A stretch of DNA of 34,315 nucleotides from Candidatus Woesearchaeota archaeon (lineage in GTDB: Archaea > Nanobdellota > Nanobdellia > Woesearchaeales > ARS49): positions 1-34,315 of the forward strand of contig WJJS01000033.1 of NCBI GenBank assembly GCA_014729505.1. Direction: 5' to 3'. Below are positions 13,565 to 26,657 of the stretch, piece after piece (positions within the stretch are counted from its first letter, which is position 1; the number at the start of each line of letters is the position of its first letter). Both the position numbers and the translations under genes were made by a program. The notes below the pieces were generated by a model. The model was not told where the DNA came from. It worked only from the letters and a program-made list of their open reading frames with translations, and ran no database searches.

Positions 13565-15757
13565 CTACGTAATCGGAGCAGTCCTACCAAGAATAACACT
13601 TGCAATAATCGTAAAAATAAGCAAGACAACAGTAGCGATAATACAGTACACCTGAGGACTTCGCATAATGTTTTTAGCAATAGAATCCTCCAAACCAACA
13701 CGGTCAGAACCATTCTCAATACCCGTTTGCATCATCGTGAGAATGTAAATAATCTGCACCACATAAATACCAACAACCAGTTGGAAATAATACGTAGGAA
13801 GACCATCACCAAACAATGAAGCAACATTTAATGCAGTCGAACTAGGGCCTGCCGCTTCAATATTCTCAAAATTATTATTCAAGCGACTCAAAATAAACGT
13901 GATCATGCTAGTGATACCAATAACAATACCTGCAATAGCAGGAGTCAAGAACTTAATCTGCGACTTCATATCACTAATCACATCAGAAAGCAATTGTTGA
14001 AGCTGAAAATTGACTTCATTAATCTTAGTCACATATGTTGAAATACCCCATAACGCCTGAGCAGCAACCTTAGGACCCTTATCTGCAGCTTCGATCAAAA
14101 TACGCATAGAACTATTAATCAAATTAGAAGGGTATTGAATCATCGCGCCAAGCTTCTTATCAAAAATAGCCTGTTCAGGAGTCATACCCTTAGCAATATT
14201 ATTACTAATACGCGCAAAAAACCTGCCCGTAGAACTTCCCGGAAGCGCCTGAGCAGACTGACCAAACGCCCGTTCCAAAGGAATATCATTATCAAGAATA
14301 CCGCCGAGCTGATAGAGCGCAGTACTAAATTCTTCTTCAGCTTTATCACGCTGATCTTTCGTCTTAAGCAAACGACGCACACGAAGCTTATACGTCAACC
14401 CAATACCCACTGACAACGCAAGAGGAAAGAAAAAACTCAGCAACGAAGCACCAAGACCATAAGGGCCTACAATGACCGTCGTAGAATCTGCAGCAAAACG
14501 ATAACCAAGAAGAACAAAATCCAAAAACAAAGGCACATCAAAATCAACACTGGGCTGAAACCAGTGAATAATAAGAGGAATCAACGCAATAAGAAACAAA
14601 AAAGATCCAACGATCGTACCCACCACCCAGGGTTTAACACGAACAAAAGACAGCGAGGGCTTACCCTCTTCAGCCTCCTTTAACGGATCAACAGGCTTAA
14701 ACGAAGGCAGCCAAACCCTATTATCAAGTTCAATACCTGTCTCGCTCATGTCAGTATCACCATACCCCGTGGGTCGCTGATTGAGCGCTTCACGACCTGC
14801 AAGATACACAATAAAAGGCAACACCACATTATACAAAGTAGCAATATGATACCACTTGACATCACTCATAAAGCTCACAACCAAGGGAAGAATCACCAAT
14901 CCCAAAATCGGAAGCACAATACCAAGCATGTGAAGCGCAGTAATCTTACTCTTCAAATTACGCGCATAGGTCGTCATCTTATTATACGTACCATCAAGAA
15001 TTTCCTTAAGCGCACGATCAAGAACCTCGCGCTGACGTTCCTCATCAGGTTCAACAACAGCATGTTGCACCAATTGAATAGCACGAACAAATTCAGGATT
15101 AAACTCCTGCCAGGTACGCAAGTACTCATCCAACGCCTCCTTTGTCGTCGGATACTTATCGCTTAGCGCATCCTCGAGCACACGAGCAAAATCAGCAGCA
15201 AGAGGACCGGTCAAGTACTGTGCAGCAAAACGAAGAGCGTTTTCCACGTTCGGCGTATGCTTCATGTAGGTAACCAGATAAAACACACACAACACCATCT
15301 GATTACTAGCCCTCAAACGCCAGGTGGTCGCCAGATACGAAGGAAGCTTACTGAATACCATAAAACCGGCGCCGCCTACCACGAGGAAAAAAATCGCATA
15401 AAAAGCAGAATCAAACAACAGCAAACTCAAAGTAAGACCCAACAAACCGATGAGGGAAGGCCACAGAATAGCTGCAGTATACGCACTCGTTGGCGTAATA
15501 GTAGCATGAGCAATCTGAATATCCTTTTCCAACTGCACACGCTGTTTTTCAGGAGGATCAATCTTTAAGCCGGTCTTGACAGCCCAGAAACACAATTTTT
15601 CATAAATACTGAGCGATCGAGGAACATAACGCTTCTTATACTCAAGATAATCAATACTTGGAGACGGTTCATATTGTACAGGTTCAGGCCTGTCCAACGC
15701 AAGCTCTTTTGCAAGCAACAATTTCTGCTTTGCAATCAGCGCTTCATAATCAGTCAT
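13565..15757 (-). CDS. Archaellum/type IV pilus-like platform membrane protein (ArlJ/TadC-type, T2SSF domains)
   Basis: 730 residues with two T2SSF-like modules, at about 150-290 and 470-625, each a cytoplasmic helical block followed by transmembrane helices, plus helices near 95-135, 375-400, 435-455, 655-675 and 700-723. Archaellum platform protein ArlJ also holds duplicated T2SSF modules but is usually 550-600 residues; the extra length here lies in the N-terminal soluble region and the linker at about 330-375. Such proteins form the inner-membrane platform on which the ATPase drives assembly of pilin-like subunits. The gene lies 31 nt after the ATPase gene, with a GGAGGA motif in the gap, so the two form an operon. 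A C-terminal Arg-Thr-Ala-Pro-Ile-Thr ends the chain. Confidence 0.85.
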   Translation of the reverse strand: MTDYEALIAKQKLLLAKELALDRPEPVQYEPSPSIDYLEYKKRYVPRSLSIYEKLCFWAVKTGLKIDPPEKQRVQLEKDIQIAHATITPTSAYTAAILWPSLIGLLGLTLSLLLFDSAFYAIFFLVVGGAGFMVFSKLPSYLATTWRLRASNQMVLCVFYLVTYMKHTPNVENALRFAAQYLTGPLAADFARVLEDALSDKYPTTKEALDEYLRTWQEFNPEFVRAIQLVQHAVVEPDEERQREVLDRALKEILDGTYNKMTTYARNLKSKITALHMLGIVLPILGLVILPLVVSFMSDVKWYHIATLYNVVLPFIVYLAGREALNQRPTGYGDTDMSETGIELDNRVWLPSFKPVDPLKEAEEGKPSLSFVRVKPWVVGTIVGSFLFLIALIPLIIHWFQPSVDFDVPLFLDFVLLGYRFAADSTTVIVGPYGLGASLLSFFFPLALSVGIGLTYKLRVRRLLKTKDQRDKAEEEFSTALYQLGGILDNDIPLERAFGQSAQALPGSSTGRFFARISNNIAKGMTPEQAIFDKKLGAMIQYPSNLINSSMRILIEAADKGPKVAAQALWGISTYVTKINEVNFQLQQLLSDVISDMKSQIKFLTPAIAGIVIGITSMITFILSRLNNNFENIEAAGPSSTALNVASLFGDGLPTYYFQLVVGIYVVQIIYILTMMQTGIENGSDRVGLEDSIAKNIMRSPQVYCIIATVVLLIFTIIASVILGRTAPIT

Positions 15758-15788
15758 TGCAGACTAATTCCTCCGCCCCCGACGACAC

Positions 15789-18191
15789 TCATCTCACCAG
15801 CTCCTTTGCGGCACGATCAAGCCAATGCTTGAACAAACGAAGAATGCGAGAAGGATCAAAATATCCCACACCCTTTTGAGCCTTAATTTCATCATGAACT
15901 TCCCAACTGATATCGCGAAACGCGTCAAGCGCATCAACATAAAACGGAGCACGAACAATATCAGGATTTTCCCTTTCAATCGCTTTAGCAATGATCTCCT
16001 TAATCACCTGCGACCGCAGGATAATATTTTCCCAAATCCTATCCCATTGACCGGCAAACGCTGCATAACGAGCACCAATCTCCTTAATTATTTGAGAATC
16101 ACCACGAAGCAGCGCTTCAGTAGGTTCCAACGCATCAGCATCATGATCAAAATCAACCAGCTCGACAAAGCCATTCTCCGTTAAAGGATCCGTCGTCCAA
16201 AACTTACGCACCTCAGTAATAGACGTCATACGCGGTCCTGTCTTATCAGGCAAAGGACGAGCCATTAACACAATATCAGTAGCTTTGAAACTCGTTGTCG
16301 GCACTTCAAGATCATTAACCACACGATCAAAAACACCATATGGATCATTGGCATGAATCGTACCAGCAACAACATTAGCAAGAGCACCTACACGCATCGC
16401 CTCATACAACGAACGCGCCTCAGTAGAACGCACTTCTCCAACAATCAGCGAAGAATCACCAAGACGTAACGTAGAACGAATACCTTCCTCAGCACTCACC
16501 TCACGAGAACCACGCGCAAGCGCAGAAGCAACCTTTAAGGATTGAATATTAAAACCGATCTCCTTGAGCTTTCCAACAGGGATTTCCAACGTATCCTCAA
16601 TAGTAATAATACGAACCTTACGACTGATATTGACAAGCAGAGAAGAGAGCAGGGTAGTCTTGCCAGAACTACGCGTACCAGCAACAAGAAATGTGCGCTT
16701 ACCATCAATGAGAAAACTCAACAATCCCGCAGCAAGAGGAATATCAAGACGTTTTGACGGAGCAAGCATCATCGAACCCCACGTCGTCGCACCCCACCTC
16801 TTTACCTTAGCACTCATCTCCTTATACGTCACAAGCGGCTGCGAATAACGAGCAAACGTCACAGGATCGGGAGCATGCTGGCGAATAGCAAGAGCATATT
16901 GGTCAGGTTCAGGCACAAGAGGAGAAGTGATAATAGCAGTTCTTGAACGAAAATTGCCAGGCACCTCCAATTTGTCAGTATCAAGAATAGGGTGTGAACG
17001 ATCAAGAGGACGACCAGAGAGAAACTTCAAACGAGTACCCCAACTTTTCACTTCGGCAACAGTAGGAGTAATATTAGTGATACACTCTCCAAAACCACGC
17101 ATCTTAATGTAAATAGGAGTCTGCGCATTAGGCGTGTTAACAACGATGTCCTGCACCTTTTTATCAGTGAGAAGAATCTCAATGACACCAAAACCAATAG
17201 TGTTACGCACAAAAATCGCTGCGAGTTCCTCAAACTCCTCCTTTGACAAATCCATAGGTGTCGCGCTGGAACGCACAACATCATTAATAATACCAAGAGA
17301 TACATTAAACAACGAACCACGGGGATTCTCCAAATACGCACCCGTGTGATCCTGAATCTCTGCTGTAGGACGAGTCTCGTAACGCTCCTTTGCCGCATGC
17401 AAAATATTGTACTTCTCCCACGTCAGATTTGCCTCAATAGGAACCACATGATACATGCGCTGCTCAGAATCAACAAGTTCAAAAATCGTGACTTCAGCAA
17501 CCGTCATCTTAAAAACAGGATCAACGACATGATACGAATCAAGAATCTGCGCGTTTAACGGGTACTGAGCCTGAATCTTAGAACGCATAAAATCAGGCTT
17601 AATCGTAGCTTGAAAAACAGTAGTATACCCACTGCGATCACCAATTTGGAAACGTGCAATATCAGGATCAATCTTGGTAATCAAGGAGGTCTGAGATAAC
17701 TGTTTTTTTGCATACTCAACAAAACGAGCGTACTTATCAAGACAATCTGCACGAGGCATTTCAGGAACGCCGGCCTTCAATTTTTTCTTATCCTCATTAG
17801 TCGTACGCACAAACTGCACATACGCGCCAATAGGATCAAGCAGGATCTCATGAGTAAACAAATCAACAAGCATAGCCATGCGCGGACCAAAAAAAGACTT
17901 ACACTCCTTATGATTGGCCACATCAAGCTTTTTTACCTCCTCTTGCAAAGTCACAATAACATCTGCCATCTGAGAGAGAATTTTTGTCTGTTCAGGATTA
18001 TACTCATACTCTGTTAATTGCTCCAGACGAATACTATGAGGGTGTCCAAGATCAATAATTTTTTGAAGCACAAGCTCCATCGCCTTAGGCTGATTCTCAA
18101 TAGAAGGAAAAAAATCACACTCATCACAATCAATAATCATGATTGCGGAGCCTTCTTGATATTCTATTCTCGTATTGCCACACTTGGCCAT
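15789..18191 (-). CDS. Type II/IV secretion system ATPase (ArlI/archaeal pilus family), long form
   Basis: 800 residues. The C-terminal motor has Walker A GTRSSGKT (505-512), the Asp-box region IITIEDTLEIP (528-538), Walker B LIVGEVR (582-588) and the His-box AGTIHAND (609-616). About 330 residues precede the RecA-like core. The N-terminus carries C4, C22 and C25 in an I-x-DCDECDFFPS context that could bind metal. ArlI proteins are usually 500-550 residues, so this is an extended form, seen also in archaeal pilus and secretion ATPases. It hexamerises at the membrane and powers the platform protein encoded just downstream. A GGTGA motif lies 4 nt before the ATG at 18191, so translation is probably leadered. 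Confidence 0.9.
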   Translation of the reverse strand: MAKCGNTRIEYQEGSAIMIIDCDECDFFPSIENQPKAMELVLQKIIDLGHPHSIRLEQLTEYEYNPEQTKILSQMADVIVTLQEEVKKLDVANHKECKSFFGPRMAMLVDLFTHEILLDPIGAYVQFVRTTNEDKKKLKAGVPEMPRADCLDKYARFVEYAKKQLSQTSLITKIDPDIARFQIGDRSGYTTVFQATIKPDFMRSKIQAQYPLNAQILDSYHVVDPVFKMTVAEVTIFELVDSEQRMYHVVPIEANLTWEKYNILHAAKERYETRPTAEIQDHTGAYLENPRGSLFNVSLGIINDVVRSSATPMDLSKEEFEELAAIFVRNTIGFGVIEILLTDKKVQDIVVNTPNAQTPIYIKMRGFGECITNITPTVAEVKSWGTRLKFLSGRPLDRSHPILDTDKLEVPGNFRSRTAIITSPLVPEPDQYALAIRQHAPDPVTFARYSQPLVTYKEMSAKVKRWGATTWGSMMLAPSKRLDIPLAAGLLSFLIDGKRTFLVAGTRSSGKTTLLSSLLVNISRKVRIITIEDTLEIPVGKLKEIGFNIQSLKVASALARGSREVSAEEGIRSTLRLGDSSLIVGEVRSTEARSLYEAMRVGALANVVAGTIHANDPYGVFDRVVNDLEVPTTSFKATDIVLMARPLPDKTGPRMTSITEVRKFWTTDPLTENGFVELVDFDHDADALEPTEALLRGDSQIIKEIGARYAAFAGQWDRIWENIILRSQVIKEIIAKAIERENPDIVRAPFYVDALDAFRDISWEVHDEIKAQKGVGYFDPSRILRLFKHWLDRAAKELVR

Positions 18192-18299
18192 GCGCTCACC
18201 ACTCTTTTGCAGTTACAAAAACTTAATATGCTCGACAGACCGTACATAAACATATTCGTCATTCATGACGGGGAGTTGACTATATATAAAACTTTGCGC

Positions 18300-18680
18300 A
18301 TGGCAAACAAAACAATACCGGATTCGGCAAGCACTGAACAGGTGCAAACACTCAAAGCGCTTTCATCACGAATCGCTTTTATGGAAGATCGCTACAAGGC
18401 CTTTGATTCACGACTGCGACAATTACAAAAGAACCTGCTCGATCATCACCAGGAACTACGACGACTCATCGGAGACCTTGATCGCGAAATGATACGAGCT
18501 CAAGATGATATCGATGAAATCAACGATCGCATGAAAACACTGCGTAACGAGATACTTTTGCGCGCAAGCAAGGAAGATATCGAAGCACTGCGACGATACA
18601 TGGATACCTGGGAACCACTCAAATGGGTCACCGCAGATCAAGTAGAAGAAATCGTACGAGACATACTGAAGAAAAAATAA
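18300..18680 (+). CDS. Coiled-coil protein of unknown function, next to the secretion ATPase
   Basis: 126 residues from the ATG at 18300. Residues 10-105 are strongly helical with heptad spacing (QLQKNLLDHHQELRRLIGDLD and IDEINDRMKTLRNEILLRAS), and the C-terminus has TWEPLKWVTADQVEEIVRD, a W-x-P-L-x-W-V-T motif that looks conserved-domain-like but that I cannot name. There is no signal peptide or membrane helix, so it is cytoplasmic. It is divergent from the ATPase gene. A TATATATAAA stretch sits at 18281-18290, only about 15 nt before the ATG, which does not fit the 26-nt rule, so the start is uncertain (GTG at 18342 and ATG at 18381 are later options). A role like the archaellum ArlC/D/E coiled-coil proteins is a guess from context. 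Confidence 0.6.
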   Translation: MANKTIPDSASTEQVQTLKALSSRIAFMEDRYKAFDSRLRQLQKNLLDHHQELRRLIGDLDREMIRAQDDIDEINDRMKTLRNEILLRASKEDIEALRRYMDTWEPLKWVTADQVEEIVRDILKKK

Positions 18681-18693
18681 ACTACGCAGAACA

Positions 18694-18701
18694 TTTAAAT
18701 A
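18694..18701 (+). promoter_or_regulatory. TATA box of the 53-residue gene and coiled-coil operon
   Basis: TTTAAATA, centred 25.5 nt before the ATG at 18723. It lies 13 nt after the stop of the preceding coiled-coil gene. Confidence 0.7.
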
Positions 18702-18722
18702 ACTCCCTCTCTTATCACGACC

Positions 18723-18884
18723 ATGCCAAGTGAAAAAGAGGTAGAACAACTCATAGATAACGCTCTTGCACCATTACTTGCGCAAATAGAGGACTTGCAA
18801 CGCGCACAAGAACAATGGCGTTTTACCGTACTGCGCTTTAAACGTCGCCTGCAACTCATGAGAGACTTGGCGGAGGCACCCTAA
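18723..18884 (+). CDS. Small 53-residue helical protein
   Basis: A short gene: MPSEKEVEQL at the start, then a single predicted helix with heptad-like leucines and many charged residues, ending RDLAEAP. It has its own TATA box at the standard leaderless distance, and its stop TAA overlaps the ATG of the following gene (TAATG at 18882-18886), so it is translationally coupled to the 211-residue coiled-coil protein. It has no membrane segment or metal motif. The function is unknown. The promoter and coupling are the reasons for treating it as a real gene despite its length. Confidence 0.68.
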   Translation: MPSEKEVEQLIDNALAPLLAQIEDLQRAQEQWRFTVLRFKRRLQLMRDLAEAP

Positions 18885-19519
18885 TGGGCGTACTCGATAC
18901 ATTTCGCGGACTCTTCAAGAAAGAGCCCAAAAAAGAGGAAAAAAAGGAGGTCAAAAACGTGGTTGACAAAGCTCCAGCAGATCCTGTTGTTGATTACATC
19001 ATAAGCCAACGCAACAAAGGTATTGGTGATGATGATATCATCGCAACATTACTCAAACACGGTCATCAAGATGACGACATCAAAGAGGCCATGAAAAAAG
19101 CAGACAAAGCAATGGGTGTTGAACCCATGGACACAAAAGAATTACCAGAACCAACACCGAATGGAACATCAAAAATGCCTGAAGGAGTAGAAATAATAGA
19201 ACCCTCAAAAGCACTTGCAGAAATACAGAATATGGTTGATGACCGCGTAAAAGAAGTGCAAGATGACGTTGCAGAACTCGCAAAATGGCGTTCACAAGTG
19301 GATGCAGATCTACAAGGGCTTGAAGCGGAGGTCAAAGATATCAAAAGCATGCTCAAACAACGACGAGAAGAAGACCAATCACGATTCCAACGCTACGATC
19401 AACACCTCTCTGAAGTCAAAGTCGAGCTCAAAGCGATGCAGGAAGTGTTCCAAAAGGGACTGCCAGAATTCACAAAAGGAATACAAGAACTCTCACGCAT
19501 CGTCAAAAAACAAAAATAA
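18884..19519 (+). CDS. Coiled-coil protein with amphipathic N-terminus and UBA-like helical module
   Basis: 211 residues. The N-terminus MGVLDTFRGLFKK could be an amphipathic membrane-touching helix, followed by a Lys/Glu linker. Residues about 32-70 (VDYIISQRNKGIGDDDIIATLLKHGHQDDDIKEAMKKA) resemble a small three-helix module of the UBA/SHOCT kind, with paired G-x-D-D-D-I repeats. Residues 100-211 form a long coiled coil. No transmembrane helix is seen. It is coupled by a 1-nt overlap to the 53-residue gene, and its 3' end is 7 nt from the convergent membrane-protein operon. The function is unknown; the setting suggests a cytoplasmic partner of the nearby membrane machine. Confidence 0.68.
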   Translation: MGVLDTFRGLFKKEPKKEEKKEVKNVVDKAPADPVVDYIISQRNKGIGDDDIIATLLKHGHQDDDIKEAMKKADKAMGVEPMDTKELPEPTPNGTSKMPEGVEIIEPSKALAEIQNMVDDRVKEVQDDVAELAKWRSQVDADLQGLEAEVKDIKSMLKQRREEDQSRFQRYDQHLSEVKVELKAMQEVFQKGLPEFTKGIQELSRIVKKQK

Positions 19520-19522
19520 TCC

Positions 19523-19534
19523 TTTTTTATTTTT
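19523..19534 (+). terminator. T-rich terminator of the coiled-coil operon
   Basis: TTTTTTATTTTT immediately after the stop at 19519, matching the oligo-T terminators of archaea. It overlaps the stop codon region of the convergent gene. Confidence 0.5.
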
Positions 19535-20093
19535 CTGATTTCTTTGATAATTGTCCGATCGCAAAAAATGCGATAAGAAGAATCACTGCCATACCCAAGA
19601 CTTTAGGATGCAAAATCACCTGGAAAAAACCGGCCTGCTCTTCAGGACCTTCCTGCAACGCAGAAGAAACATTATCTGCAGTTAAATCAGTAAACCCCTG
19701 TTCTTGAGAAATAACAGACGTAAGACTGCCAATAACAATAATAAGAATCAACGCAAAAATCCACCATCCAAGCGTCGAAGAATACTCCCCCTCATGAATA
19801 GCCTGCCTTAACGATTCCTCATTATGACCAACAATATAATACGCGAGCAGAGCAAAGATAATCGCGACAAACAAAAGCACAAACCACGGCGCCATAACAT
19901 TAATGGTCTTTATGGCAATAGGACTAAACATGGTAAGCACGGCAAGTGCCACCGCCATTAAGGCAGCATACAAGTAGTTCTCCTTGAAAGGAGGAACCTG
20001 CGTCAAGAACGCAAAAACCGCCGTGAGTACAAAAATAAAAGGAAAAACTACCTGAAACGTTTGCAAGAGTCCAACATCAAGAGGAGAGACCAT
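19527..20093 (-). CDS. Four-helix membrane protein C (third of a tandem set)
   Basis: 188 residues with about five hydrophobic segments. It begins VGLLQTFQVVFPFIFVLTAVFAFL, which lines up in position and pattern with the first helix of the two upstream genes (G-L-L/V-Y-D-x3-P-F-x-L-x-F-x-I-x-Y-A). A loop with EGPEEQAG sits between the last two helices, and the tail is short and Lys-rich. It starts exactly where the preceding gene stops (20093/20094), so it is the last gene of a three-gene operon. It has no recognisable enzymatic motif. It is probably a paralogue that has diverged further than the other two. Confidence 0.7.
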   Translation of the reverse strand: MVSPLDVGLLQTFQVVFPFIFVLTAVFAFLTQVPPFKENYLYAALMAVALAVLTMFSPIAIKTINVMAPWFVLLFVAIIFALLAYYIVGHNEESLRQAIHEGEYSSTLGWWIFALILIIVIGSLTSVISQEQGFTDLTADNVSSALQEGPEEQAGFFQVILHPKVLGMAVILLIAFFAIGQLSKKSEK

Positions 20094-20690
20094 TTATGGA
20101 GGAGTACCTGGTTGTGTTACCTTGTTACCTTTCTTATCATCTCCGCTGTCAGAAAACACGACAGCCCAGACAACAAGACCAAAGACAAGGATAATAATCA
20201 TCACACTGTAAAAATGAGGATTCGCAAGGAAATTAAGAAAACCCGGTAATTGACCTGGAGGAGCCATCGCACCAAAAAAGACAAGCGCAACCAAAACAAG
20301 AGCAATCCATTTTGCACTATTCTGCCAGTACGTAAACTTTTCCCAATCCTTACCTGCCAGCAAACCAGTAAGAATCATCACTACAGTTACTGCAAGAACA
20401 ATCAACGCAATCTCAGGAAGAGCCCTGTTAATGATGGCAACAGGATCAGCAGTTGGCGACGGATACAAACCAAGAGCGTGAGGCACCACAGTGATAAGCG
20501 CAACAGAAAGCGAAACGACCAAATTAGCCTGACGATTCTTTAATACCTTGATTTGATCCATCACTGCATAAAAGATAGCGAAGATCAACGCAAAAGGAAT
20601 CAATGCATCAAGTAAGCCAAGATTTTCAAGAAATTGCAGGGCATCTGCAAACGGACCGAAACGTCCATACCCGTAATATTGGAATATCAT
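20094..20690 (-). CDS. Four-helix membrane protein B (second of a tandem set)
   Basis: 198 residues from the ATG at 20690. A longer frame runs upstream, but the ATGA overlap with the previous gene (20687-20690) marks the start. It has four to five hydrophobic helices: LGLLDALIPFALIFAIFYAVM near the N-terminus, then a K-V-L-K-N turn, two further helices, a W-rich loop (KFTYWQNSAKW) and a C-terminal helix, ending in a hydrophilic DSGDDKKGN tail. The first helix and following K-V-L turn closely resemble those of gene A. There are no catalytic or binding motifs. It is probably a structural membrane component and is co-translated with its neighbours. Confidence 0.75.
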   Translation of the reverse strand: MIFQYYGYGRFGPFADALQFLENLGLLDALIPFALIFAIFYAVMDQIKVLKNRQANLVVSLSVALITVVPHALGLYPSPTADPVAIINRALPEIALIVLAVTVVMILTGLLAGKDWEKFTYWQNSAKWIALVLVALVFFGAMAPPGQLPGFLNFLANPHFYSVMIIILVFGLVVWAVVFSDSGDDKKGNKVTQPGTPP

Positions 20691-21274
20691 TCTTTTTTGC
20701 CTCCCTTGTCGGCCTCGCCTCCAGTAGATTCGCCCGACGTTATATAATACATGAACCCTATGAGTAAGAGGATGAATATAACACTTGCGGCTGCAGCACT
20801 CGTCCAAAAGCTCGCAATAAAACCCCACAACCATTCAAGAACACTCGTGCCATCCTGCAACACAATAGCATCAGCAAAGATCAATGCGATGCCGATAAAC
20901 AAGACAACCATAAAAAACGTACGCCAGGAATTTTCAAGTTTCACTTCCTCCTCTTTACCATAAAACGTACCAATAAGCATGAGAAAAAAGATTACCAGAA
21001 CAAGGAGAACAACAACCTTTGCAGAGACCTCTGTTATAATAGAGACGATCTGTGAAGAAGCAACAACAAGGAAAGCGACGACAAAACTAGCCATGGCATT
21101 CAAATTCTTACGAGGAATATCCTCGCCATTCCATTTCTCTGTGCCAAGAACCTTCGTCTTTTCAAGAATAGCATACATAATGGTAAACACCAGTAAGAAT
21201 GGCAACACCACATCATAGACGCCAAGACGCGCCATAAATTCGATAACTCCTGCTAAAACGGTTTGTTCGGGCAT
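20687..21274 (-). CDS. Four-helix membrane protein A (first of a tandem set)
   Basis: 195 residues. The helices run LGVYDVVLPFLLVFTIMYAIL, then a loop with K-V-L-G-T-E-K-W-N, a pair of helices around residues 60-105, and helices around 118-140 and 155-178, ending in a Gly/Lys-rich tail. It has the same order and spacing as gene B, and more loosely gene C. It leads the operon: a TTTATATA box at 21312-21319 predicts a short leader, and GAGGT lies 3 nt before the ATG. The protein family is not one I can name. The position near the secretion ATPase and platform protein suggests a membrane complex. Confidence 0.75.
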   Translation of the reverse strand: MPEQTVLAGVIEFMARLGVYDVVLPFLLVFTIMYAILEKTKVLGTEKWNGEDIPRKNLNAMASFVVAFLVVASSQIVSIITEVSAKVVVLLVLVIFFLMLIGTFYGKEEEVKLENSWRTFFMVVLFIGIALIFADAIVLQDGTSVLEWLWGFIASFWTSAAAASVIFILLLIGFMYYITSGESTGGEADKGGKKE

Positions 21275-21365: not shown

Positions 21366-21386
21366 ACGAAACGATATTGTATGCAT

Positions 21387-21959
21387 ATGGTAGACAAGAA
21401 CATGTTTGCACGATTACGAAAAGAACTCGCAGCACAAGATGCGATGCGAGAAGAAGTCATCAAAGACAGTCGCGGCATCCTTAAAAGCGCAAAACAAGCC
21501 ATCTATGCAGTACATCGAGGGGATACCACAAAAGCAGAACGACTACTCAAAAGCGCAGCAACACAATTAGCACGATTATCAAAGAAAAAAGGTTCAGAAA
21601 GCATAGGCGCTTTAGGTGATGCACAAGAAGAATACGTCGAAGCACGACTCTACCTTGCCTTTGCACAAGACAAACCATTACCCACGCCACAGACATTACG
21701 CGTAGGAGCAGAACGCTACCTGGCAGGAGTCTGCGATCTTGTCGGAGAACTCGTAAGAGCAGGCATCAACGCAAGCATAAAAGAAGATTATGCAAGCGCA
21801 AAACATATCAAGGATTTCGTCGCACGAATATATGAAGAATTATTACAATTCGATTTTCGAAACTCCTCGCTACGACGAAAATTCGACGCGACAAAATACG
21901 GGCTTGACAAATTAGAAGATCTCGTTTACGATCTCAAACTACGAGGTAAACTCTCATGA
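21387..21959 (+). CDS. Translin-family RNA/ssDNA-binding protein
   Basis: 190 residues, all-helical. The pattern matches the translin/TRAX family: SRGILKSAKQAIYAVHRGD near residues 25-45, IGALGDAQEEYVEARLYLAF (about 75-95), a P-T-P-Q linker, YLAGVCDLVGELVRAGI, then RIYEELLQFDFRNSSLRRKFDATKYGLDKLEDLVYDLKLRG. Translin assembles into an octameric ring that binds or cleaves nucleic acids; the archaeal role is not settled. Catalytic Glu/Asp positions of TRAX-like nuclease subunits cannot be judged by eye. The start follows from promoter spacing; an ATG two codons earlier is possible. It overlaps the MBL hydrolase gene by ATGA. Confidence 0.85.
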   Translation: MVDKNMFARLRKELAAQDAMREEVIKDSRGILKSAKQAIYAVHRGDTTKAERLLKSAATQLARLSKKKGSESIGALGDAQEEYVEARLYLAFAQDKPLPTPQTLRVGAERYLAGVCDLVGELVRAGINASIKEDYASAKHIKDFVARIYEELLQFDFRNSSLRRKFDATKYGLDKLEDLVYDLKLRGKLS

Positions 21960-22676: not shown

Positions 22677-23969
22677 ATGACATTTCAGAGTATTCAAGAA
22701 GCCATGAACAAAGGCAGCGGAACAGTACACCTTCGAGGATGGGTCTATCGCATACGCACAAGCAAAAAACTCGCCTTTCTCGTGCTACGAGACAGCACCA
22801 ACATCATCCAATGCGTCATAGAACAAAACACTATCACGCCGCAGGAATGGGATCTTGCCACCACACTGCAAATAGAAGCAAGCGTACAATTGACGGGAAC
22901 AATAAAAGAAGACAAGAGAGCACCAACAGGATATGAAATACACGTCAACACCATAGAACTCATCGGCGAATCAGATCAATACCCCATACAAAAAGATCAA
23001 AGCCCGGAATGGTTACTCGACAACAGACATCTCTGGCTACGAAGCCGCCATATGGTAGCAATCATGAAAGTGCGCGCAACAGTCATGGACGCATTTCGCG
23101 AATACTATCAAAAAAAAGAATACACAGAATTTACACCACCAATACTGCAACCCACACAATGCGAAGGAGGATCAACATTATTTCCCGTCAAATACTACGA
23201 CGATGAAGTATACCTCACACAAACAGGACAACTCTACTCCGAAGCAATGATCTTTGCACTAGAAAAAATCTTTCTTATCAGCCCTACCTTTCGCGCAGAA
23301 AAATCAAAGACAAGCAGGCATCTCTCAGAATTCTGGATGGCAGAAATGGAAGCGGCATGGATGAATCTCGACGAATTATGCGATGATGTAGAACAATTAC
23401 TTACCCATATTGTTGCGCGAGTACTCAAAGACCACAAAAAAGAACTCACCATTTTGGGACGCGACACCACAGTACTAGAAAAAATAGTACCGCCATTTCC
23501 GCGCATGACATACAAAGAAGCACTGGCGCTTCTTAAAGAAAAAGAAGGGTTAGACATACCCTTTGGAAAAGACTTGCGCACCATTGAAGAAAACAAGTTA
23601 TCACATTATTTTGACAAACCTCTCATCATCACTCATTATCCAAAAGAAATAATGGCCTTCTACAAACCAGCAGATCCAAAGAATCCAAGCACTGCACTCT
23701 GTCTAGACGTGATCGCCCCAGAAGAATACGGAGAAATCATCGGAGGCAGTCAACGAGATCTTGACGTTGAACAAATGAAACAAGCACTGCGACACGACGG
23801 AGAAGATCCCAAGAATTACTCCTGGTATTTCGACTTACGAAAATACGGATCAGTACCTCATAGCGGTCACGGCATGGGTGTTGAGCGCGTCGTAGCATGG
23901 ATATGCAAACTTGACAATATCAAAGACGCAATACCGTTTCCACGAACAATCAAACGCTTTACTCCGTAA
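22677..23969 (+). CDS. asnS: Asparaginyl-tRNA synthetase
   Basis: 430 residues, normal for archaeal AsnRS. An N-terminal OB-fold (VHLRGWVYRIRTSKKLAFLVLRD) is followed by the class IIb core, with EGGSTLFPVKYYDDEVYLTQ, motif 2 FRAEKSKTSRH (205-215), HLSEFWMAEME, and motif 3 within GHGMGVERVVAW. The E-G-G-S-T-L-F and S-R-H-L-S-E-F-W features favour AsnRS over AspRS. It charges tRNA-Asn directly, implying that this organism need not rely wholly on transamidation for Asn-tRNA. It is leaderless from 22647-22654. Its stop overlaps the convergent mre11 by 11 nt. Confidence 0.93.
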   Translation: MTFQSIQEAMNKGSGTVHLRGWVYRIRTSKKLAFLVLRDSTNIIQCVIEQNTITPQEWDLATTLQIEASVQLTGTIKEDKRAPTGYEIHVNTIELIGESDQYPIQKDQSPEWLLDNRHLWLRSRHMVAIMKVRATVMDAFREYYQKKEYTEFTPPILQPTQCEGGSTLFPVKYYDDEVYLTQTGQLYSEAMIFALEKIFLISPTFRAEKSKTSRHLSEFWMAEMEAAWMNLDELCDDVEQLLTHIVARVLKDHKKELTILGRDTTVLEKIVPPFPRMTYKEALALLKEKEGLDIPFGKDLRTIEENKLSHYFDKPLIITHYPKEIMAFYKPADPKNPSTALCLDVIAPEEYGEIIGGSQRDLDVEQMKQALRHDGEDPKNYSWYFDLRKYGSVPHSGHGMGVERVVAWICKLDNIKDAIPFPRTIKRFTP

Positions 23970-25149
23970 TATCGAGTAAAACGTTGAGCTCAGATTCTAC
24001 ACGAGATTCAAAATCAGATTTATTCATCGCCTCATCTTTTAAAGAACTCAACACTGCAAGAACACTGTGCGTCCGTTTCACCTCTGCATCCTTGCTAAGA
24101 AACTGACCTGCACGCTCTTCAATAAGACGAGATTCAATAGATTCAATACTCTGCGGGATCACTTGAACACGTTCAAAGTCTGCACTGTGCAATTTGTAGG
24201 TGTTCTTCATCACAAAACAATCCACAAAGAGTTGGGAGAGACCAACAAAATCAATATCGGAGGGCTTTCCCTGGGACAAGGTCCCCTCAAAACGAAGCGT
24301 CACGATACTTCCAGGAGTCACTTTTTTTGCATACTCAGTAACTTGCTCTGTTATGGTATCAGGAGTTTTTTGATCACAGTCAACTGCAAAAGAGTACACT
24401 GGAGGCGTATCAAGAACGATCTCTTTGACCTGTCCATTGTCAACGATGCAGCAACTACCCTGCTTGAGTTTTTCAATTTCTGCAAACGAACAAGGAAACG
24501 TCGGACCGGGAAGCACAATACGAGGATGTCCCTCAAGGCTAGCCTGTTGACACACATGAACGTGACCGCCTGCATAATAGTCAAAACCCTTGGGAAGATA
24601 GGAGACACTCATGGCATCCATTACTTCCAAACCCTTTGGCTTTAACTCATGCAAAGCAGCATGCCAGACAAAAATCTTGAAACCCCCAATATTCAAACTT
24701 TCCCGGTGAAGATCCTGATAATAATATTTGTCTAAGCCGCCTCGACGACCAAAAATGCCTGTAATCAAGGCTCCGGTCTTAGGATCTTTTGTAAAGCGCA
24801 ATTTCAGCTTACCCTCAGACTCTTCACCCTTTGCTACGTTTACAAAAAGATCAGCACTCTCCAGGACATCAATCATGGACTTGCCGCTAGGACTAAAATC
24901 ATGACTTCCAGGAATACCATAAACGGGAATACCAGCGTCCTTTAAGCGCTTAAGCTGTGTTACCGCAAGACGAATACTCTCAATACTTGGAAGCGCTGAA
25001 TTAAACAAGTCGCCAGCGATAATGACAAAATCAACATTTTCTTGAAGAGCATGGTCAACACTCAACACAAAACCTTTTGCATTTGCTCTGCGCATGACAG
25101 GTTCTCGCCAACAACCCAAATGACAATCAGCAATATGGGCAAACTTCAC
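23959..25149 (-). CDS. mre11: DNA double-strand break repair nuclease Mre11
   Basis: 396 residues. Phosphodiesterase motifs are in order: ADCHLG (D8, H10), GDLFNS (D47), GSHDF (H83) and GGHVHV. The usual GNHD motif reads GSHD, Ser in place of the Asn ligand; I recall this variant in other archaeal Mre11 proteins but cannot confirm how common it is. Mre11 with Rad50 processes DNA ends; in archaea HerA and NurA complete the resection set. It overlaps herA by ATGA, with herA first. Rad50 and NurA genes are not in this window. The last 11 nt overlap asnS. Confidence 0.92.
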
Positions 25150-26657
25150 GAAAAATCACCAAAATACCTTTTACCCTGCACCTCAGGCAACAATTTTTTG
25201 TCAAACATAGGAATCATAATGGGAGCTGCAAAACTCAAAAAATTCGACGAGACGATGGCTTCGCCGCGATCAAGAGAGGCAATCATGCGACTCGCATCAC
25301 TCAAGTCTTGAGCAGCACTCTCGATTATTGCCTGACGTTCATTGCGCAGTTCAATTCCAAGAATAATCTTTGTATTTAGATTAGCAAGAACCGCACGAGG
25401 AATCAAGCTAGGAAGTTGAGTAATAGCCACAAGGCCCACCTTAAACTTACGGCCTTCACGAGCAATCGTAGAAAAAATATTGGGACCTTTCTCAAGCACC
25501 TCCTTTCCTAGCACGCGAGGAGCTTCCTCAAGGACAATGCTGACTACCGGGTGGTCTTGCAAGTCCTTTGACGAACAACGTTTATACTTTGCAAGAATTG
25601 CCCGCGCAAACAAACTGGCAATCAACACCTCCACAGCTCCGCTAAACGAAGAAGTATCAATAATAACAGTCATACCAGAAGTGACCTGTCGCACGACATC
25701 ACTAATCGTGTTTTGACCAAGAACAGGGTCAAAAGCACCCCTGCTGCGAATAGAGGAGCCATCAAAATCAAGAGAAAGAATAGACAAGAGTCGACGCTTT
25801 ACAACAGCAAGTGTTGCTTCATTAAAGCGCGCATGCTCAAGAGGAGTCTCACGCACCACCTCGAGAATCCACTGCTGACCAAAGGCCTGCTCGTACGCGC
25901 GAAGCGCATCGCGTTGAGCATCACTCCAATCAAAAACAGCAAGAAGATCAGCAGAACGAATTGCATGAAGATTGATCTTTAATGTATGGGCGCCAACAGG
26001 AGGCGTAGAACTATAGTATGCAACGCCGTGGGGGTGATCCTTTAAACCAAAGCCAGATCTGCCGTAATACTCGTCGTGCGGATCAAGTACGAGCATACCG
26101 CAATAAGCAGCACTGGACGCGTGCCACAATAAGTTGCTCATTAACACACTTTTACCTCTGCCCGTTGTTCCAGCAATGAGGACGTGATGGGAAAGTGCCA
26201 GAGACCCGTTGATGTGAACTGGAACATCAAGTTTCTTCGTACCACTGCGAAGTTGACCAAGCAAAAGAGCATTTCCATCAGTGCTCGAGAGAAATCTGAC
26301 ATCATCAGCAGTCACTTGAGAAATTGGAGAAAAGAAACGGGGCAAAGTCTTAGGAGACCTGGCACGACCATCCTTAACAGCAAGAAGAGACTTCAGTCGA
26401 GCAAGCACATACGTTCGAGACGAAGGATCAATCAATTCCGTATCCACGCCCTCCTCAAGTCGCAAACCAGAGATGAGTTCAAGATTCTGCTGGCCAAGTT
26501 GGGAGCCATACAACAAATCAAAGACCTGCAAAAGAATAGTCTCCTCATCCTCGCTCTTAGCGACGAGCAACTCACCCAATTCGAAACATTCCCCGTGCTT
26601 TTGTCTGGCACACAAACTACCAAATTCTCCAGAGACAAGCACGCCTTTTTCCCCCAT
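25146..26657 (-). CDS. herA: HerA bipolar DNA helicase
   Basis: 503 residues. The N-terminal HAS-barrel region (about 1-110) is followed by a FtsK/HerA-type ATPase with Walker A GTTGRGKS (163-170), [10 protein letters not shown], Walker [13 protein letters not shown] and the sensor-like [18 protein letters not shown]. HerA forms a hexamer that, with NurA, unwinds and degrades DNA ends exposed by Mre11-Rad50. It leads the herA-mre11 pair with a leaderless promoter at 26680-26687. The start at 26657 fits the promoter exactly. Confidence 0.93.

Follow-up and report, generated by a model that had tools for sequence, protein, structure and literature searches.

The locus analyzed here raises the question of whether a pilus-type motor, the coiled-coil proteins beside it, and a triplicated family of membrane proteins are parts of one membrane machine and, if so, of what kind. 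The window (the whole stretch of 34,315 nucleotides that was analyzed) is one contig of the 1.05-Mb genome of a Candidatus Woesearchaeota archaeon, whose small size and gene content point to a member of the DPANN (phylum Nanobdellota). The seven ORFs in three closely spaced units described in an earlier note on this DNA were all present in the window, and its observation was partly confirmed; what did not stand were the number of membrane helices, the relevance of a 53-residue ORF, and the absence of pilus genes when the whole genome was considered.

The first unit, on the minus strand, comprises a 730-aa platform protein of the FlaJ/TadC type (13565–15757) and an 800-aa pilus-type secretion ATPase (15789–18191). 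On the plus strand are CC1, a coiled-coil protein of 126 aa (18300–18680), the 53-residue ORF found by ORF calling (18723–18884), and CC2, a protein of 211 aa with a helical stretch followed by a coiled coil (18884–19519). The membrane proteins are again on the minus strand: M3 (188 aa, 19527–20093), M2 (198 aa, 20094–20690), and M1 (195 aa, 20687–21274). The stop of the 53-residue ORF and the start of CC2 overlap by one base, and the stop of M1 overlaps the start of M2. CC1 was taken to start at 18300, as a longer frame that opens at 18018 runs into the ATPase gene on the opposite strand; the start of M2 was placed at 20690, the alternative frame of 246 aa containing extra sequence that overlaps M1. 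No relative of the 53-residue ORF was found in 60 loci; it is known only from this window and falls outside the conserved set. The earlier note had listed it with the other genes.

The motor pair could be assigned by comparison with Pfam. The ATPase, composed of a long N-terminal region and a T2SSE/VirB11-type ATPase, matched T2SSE (PF00437, E 3e-17), and the second half of the platform protein matched T2SSF (PF00482, E 9e-6); each match exceeded its curated cut-off. The nearest solved relatives of the ATPase are 2oap and the CpaF and FlaI ATPases, and it is the only PF00437 match in the genome. A secretion ATPase of the T2SSE/VirB11 family and an adjoining polytopic platform of the T2SSF/TadC/FlaJ type, two marks of the type IV pilus/archaellum superfamily, are therefore both present, and the sequences support an archaeal pair of this kind, with the two genes adjacent as in the known cores PilB-PilC, FlaI-FlaJ, and TadA-TadC. 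The archaellum itself differs: its ATPase model gave 102 bits on the block ATPase against a cut-off of 550, no FlaC/D/E family was found among the block's proteins with Pfam, and no ArlC/D/E, ArlF/G, or ArlH family was recognized among them with Pfam and NCBIfam. In the search of relatives, the ATPase was present in 55 of 57 genomes, including all 39 good assemblies. Where at least 3 kb of downstream sequence was available, the platform gene lay downstream from it in 39 of 42 loci. The ATPase frame reaches 1250–1960 aa in several relatives (L082 of G002, L037, and genomes G006, G014, G032, G063, G072, and G102); in G002 (L082:5872-9621), its conserved core contains an intein with a LAGLIDADG domain (Pfam Intein_splicing, E 2e-23).

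The gene order platform–ATPase, CC1–CC2, M3–M2–M1 recurs in the loci of relatives across the order to which the organism belongs. Where 5 kb or more of sequence lay upstream of the ATPase (39 loci), CC1 and CC2 were each found in 36 and at least three M genes in 33. Most other sampled families of the phylum have the same order and orientation, with different flanks. Of 279 phylum genomes searched with a combined M profile, 269 carried the membrane family, usually in three copies. Because the block recurs across the phylum, its clustering is far beyond chance. Conserved co-occurrence in related archaeal genomes, which the earlier note had proposed as a check, was thus strongly positive throughout the phylum for all the genes but the 53-residue ORF. 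In most genomes of the order, M1 is followed by a gene for a translin-family protein (21381–21959 in the window; PF01997, E 2.5e-24), which was not seen after M1 in the loci outside the order. There, the gene after M1 often encodes a conserved protein of ~95 aa (L119:4809-5093 and equivalents), PRC-barrel-like by eye and without a Pfam match; in the same locus, a TraB/PrgY-family protein was also found after M1 (L119:4079-4741, E 2.6e-17). Farther along the window (23959–26657) are adjoining genes for an Mre11-like phosphoesterase and a HerA-type ATPase, a DNA-repair pair that is ordinary for archaea.

The membrane proteins, taken to have four helices in the earlier note, were found by hydropathy to have about five hydrophobic membrane segments instead. 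For M1 and M2 this was also seen in AlphaFold2 models (pLDDT of 84 and 79, respectively), with five membrane helices predicted for M2; TM2 and TM3 are continuous in the M1 model. M1 and M2 carry an additional short N-terminal helix, and all three proteins have short loops and no sizeable exported domain. They are homologous to one another (probability of 98.5%–99.9% in profile comparisons). Best cross-genome matches kept to the positional group in 120 of 123 cases, and in a tree of 119 M proteins from across the phylum, position took 6 changes, compared with 57 when labels were shuffled. Because the proteins sort by position in both analyses, M1, M2, and M3 are, by these measures, three lineages, and their triplication is older than the radiation of the phylum. 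Seven loci (L040, L041, L048, L082, L084, L085, and L086) had one M gene beyond the three, which was usually another copy of the M2-like type.

In the alignments, M1 is the most conserved member of the trio. Among the conserved residues are a Gly/Asp/Pro cluster where the first helix begins, Glu38 and Asn59 in M1, a Pro-His in M2, and a His-Pro-Lys in M3. No conserved acidic residue was seen mid-membrane in these alignments, so an ion-driven stator is not suggested. Searches of M1–M3 against Pfam, NCBIfam, and PDB sequences gave weak scattered matches only, all under cut-off, and the family is nameless in Pfam and NCBIfam. Neither the M models against solved structures nor the M2 model against viral structures gave a fold match at E ≤ 0.001. 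A viral origin is likewise unsupported, since no relative turned up when IMG/VR viral contigs were searched with M1. As their folds match nothing known, the role of these proteins can be deduced from the company they keep only.

What kind of machine the motor serves depends on its connection to pilins. The earlier note had reported neither a pilin nor a prepilin peptidase, which holds for the window; in the genome, however, a single A24 prepilin peptidase was found on contig 7 (G000:C7; 278-aa ORF, E 2.4e-13), with a pilin-like ORF ~1.2 kb away that starts with MARGLSPLTTTGLLLFISILLGATVMTFGEEF. In a second genome of the family, a related ORF with the motif RKGISPLIATVLLVAFSVALGALVMSWG (pairwise E 3e-17) likewise lies close to the peptidase, and the N-termini of these ORFs look like those of archaeal pilins. 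Pilins were sought in the genome by inspecting ORFs near the peptidase only, and the pilin-like ORF found there had no match in Pfam. The class III signal model PF04021, which is short and fired in only 2 of 14 control genomes, detected nothing in the genome, and the DNA pattern 'GQVT.F' had no match in it. None of the loci compared inside the phylum encodes a pilin in the block. The A24 peptidase, a further mark of the pilus superfamily, was present in 54 of the 57 genomes searched. Because it is nearly universal and is kept in most genomes that lack the block ATPase, it does not track the block system and was discarded as an uninformative co-occurrence marker.

The nearest named matches are in the Diapherotrites/Micrarchaeota, in which a homologous pair (ATPase 32%–36% identical) adjoins ORFs with pilin-like N-termini, for example QKGQEFEVFNVLIGAVLALAILVII. 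No convincing M gene was found in the seven Diapherotrites/Micrarchaeota genomes carrying the pair. Since the pairs of other phyla adjoin pilin-like genes and have no convincing M, the ATPase–platform pair was, on this comparison, associated with pili ancestrally, and M1–M3 appear to have been added in this phylum. The occurrence of the pair apart from the other five genes, which the earlier note had named as an argument against one system, was observed outside the phylum, in those seven genomes, and not inside it. The distance from the pilus that the earlier note had implied is not supported, in view both of these relatives and of the genome itself, which keeps a prepilin peptidase together with its single T2SSE-family ATPase.

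The same evidence bears on the idea that a pilus-derived motor no longer builds a pilus, M1–M3 forming a channel or gate that moves other cargo (protein, DNA, or host contact). Inside the phylum the pilin is never in the block, unlike in the Diapherotrites; three obligate membrane proteins would be unusual for a pilus; the near-universality of the block suggests a core role; and for another pilin-less archaeal clade, 4D, a non-pilus option is left open by Makarova et al. (2016; PMC4858521). We nevertheless regard this idea as unlikely, given the peptidase retained with a single ATPase of this family and the pilin-like gene near it; moreover, according to the same paper, the pilins with which Haloferax PilB3 works are likewise encoded at a distance from it. 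It is distinctly unlikely that M1–M3 and CC1/CC2 constitute a new membrane module altering the motor, which would make the block a DPANN-specific envelope machine for contact or exchange with partner membranes and not a conventional pilus.

Another possibility is that the block consists of two unrelated neighbors, an ordinary pilus motor (perhaps with CC1/CC2) and a separate M1–M3 system, joined by gene order only. In its favor, fair conservation inside the order extends to the flanking genes for GlyRS, a translin-family protein, and AsnRS; loci outside the order were therefore compared, and there the block was intact although the translin neighbor was gone. In 69 genomes, M and the ATPase were both present in 57 and both absent in seven, leaving five discordant (Fisher p 3.7e-6). 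Three of these five have the ATPase without M: in G168 and G288 the sequence stops at or near contig edges where M would come (L152 and L153), and G228 belongs to a family, f70, in which M sits on another contig. The other two (G137 and G068) keep one M gene each without the motor ATPase, as a separate membrane system might, and CC2 was also not found in them. In G137, a genome 95% complete, the ATPase, CC2, and the other M genes were not found; its lone M gene (L156:5920-6375) adjoins a PRC-barrel-like gene of ~100 aa. CC2 was detected in all 18 ATPase-positive genomes and in none of nine ATPase-negative ones. Shared absence is, however, weakened as evidence because the genes are linked, and one deletion or missing contig takes them all; the genomes had also been chosen partly for missing M.

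Stronger evidence is the retention of parts that are no longer linked. In two single-contig genomes of family f86, a distance of ~150 kb or more separates M1–M3 from platform–ATPase–CC1–CC2, an arrangement which, with CC1/CC2 staying by the ATPase, is also what two separate systems would give. In f89, however, the break falls between the coiled-coil genes, with CC1 beside the ATPase and CC2 beside M1–M3, which ties the two halves together, and in f70 the parts are scattered and still kept. Beside the ATPase in this last family, the place of CC1/CC2 is taken by a large protein, predicted to be secreted, that is protease-like and by eye resembles sedolisin (L145:7891-10329 and L147:2025-4514). 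With M presence following ATPase presence and unlinked parts retained, two unrelated neighbors joined by gene order only are very unlikely. Taken from sequence, the data support one conserved, phylum-wide set formed by the ATPase, platform, CC1, CC2, and M1–M3, and with it the single shared machine suggested by the earlier note, for all the genes that it listed except the 53-residue ORF.

For the coiled-coil proteins, alignments and hydropathy showed a conserved C-terminal 'YxxxWxPxxFVT' stretch in CC1 and, in CC2, an N-terminal helical stretch 'GxSxxQIIxxLQxxGxxxxQIxDA' that precedes the coiled coil. Neither has a membrane segment: the highest 19-residue mean hydropathy was 1.09 for CC1 and 1.27 for CC2 (39 sequences each), and a hydrophobic segment for export or anchoring was absent from every one of these proteins, because of which both are probably cytoplasmic. 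Comparisons of CC1 and CC2 with Pfam, NCBIfam, and PDB sequences gave only weak scattered matches, all under cut-off. The weak match of CC1 to a cytotoxin subunit, at 35 bits against a cut-off of 360, reflects generic coiled coil. That CC1 and CC2 are surface attachment proteins, as the likeness to the viral fiber sigma-1 (6GAO) pointed out by Hamm et al. (2024) might imply, is highly improbable: 6GAO is also the best PDB match of the CC1 profile (E 0.0014), but the match lies in generic coiled coil, on which GCN4 fusions and syntaxin score as well, and the proteins have no segment for export or anchoring.

Parts of this system have been described before. Two conserved DPANN loci that combine CpaF and TadC with coiled-coil proteins were tied to host interaction by Hamm et al. 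(2024; PMC11291902), who reported them in Woesearchaeota, Pacearchaeota, Nanoarchaeota, and others; the ATPase is CpaF-like, and the coiled coils, which resemble 6GAO, were read as being like viral attachment proteins. The block shares with those loci the coiled-coil proteins beside CpaF and TadC and the 6GAO likeness of CC1, and is very probably the same system, matched by description; the published main text, however, names no membrane trio. Makarova et al. (2016; PMC4858521) describe a nanoarchaeal orphan pilus ATPase, subclade 4F, without identifiable pilins. The block ATPase is likened to it by description; in 4F the ATPase often has a cysteine-rich N-terminal domain, and a halobacterial coiled-coil partner is described; no mention of M-like proteins was found there. 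Makarova et al. (2019; PMC6393860) remarked that the pilus components of some DPANN genomes lack any detectable resemblance to their counterparts in other archaea. In the literature searched, no description was found of the coiled-coil pair and membrane trio as companions of archaeal pili, and M1–M3 were not mentioned in the article texts searched. The word "undescribed" used in the earlier note therefore applies mainly to M1–M3, the ATPase, TadC, and coiled-coil genes (PMC11291902) and the orphan ATPase (PMC4858521) having been reported.

We favor, with a probability of roughly 0.65, the reading that the block is the inner-membrane core of a type IV pilus-type machine, nearly universal in the phylum, with cytosolic and membrane additions. 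Like the known archaeal cores, it is accompanied in the genome by a prepilin peptidase and a pilin-like gene; it differs from them in that the pilins would be encoded outside the block and in having two coiled-coil and three membrane proteins as constant companions. In such a machine, the ATPase hexamer would use ATP hydrolysis to move the two-domain platform, and the platform would in turn push processed pilins, whose genes lie elsewhere, into a filament. CC1 and CC2, placed in the cytoplasm because neither has a signal or membrane segment, could act on the ATPase as a scaffold, clutch, or regulator, and M1–M3 may form a membrane subcomplex or ring around the platform that anchors, stabilizes, or gates it. 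A cytoplasmic scaffold on the ATPase and a membrane ring around the platform would be the most economical model, and attachment to partner or host cells is a likely use of the machine.

The locus thus belongs to a real machine that spans the phylum and is of a known kind, but carries unexplained and nearly constant extra parts. Present in nearly all sampled genomes of a large group of archaea that are reduced and probably host-dependent, the machine must have an important role, and the membrane trio is nearly as widespread as core genes are. The resulting list of seven proteins makes testable a question that has been open since 2016, namely the role of the pilin-less nanoarchaeal pilus ATPase.
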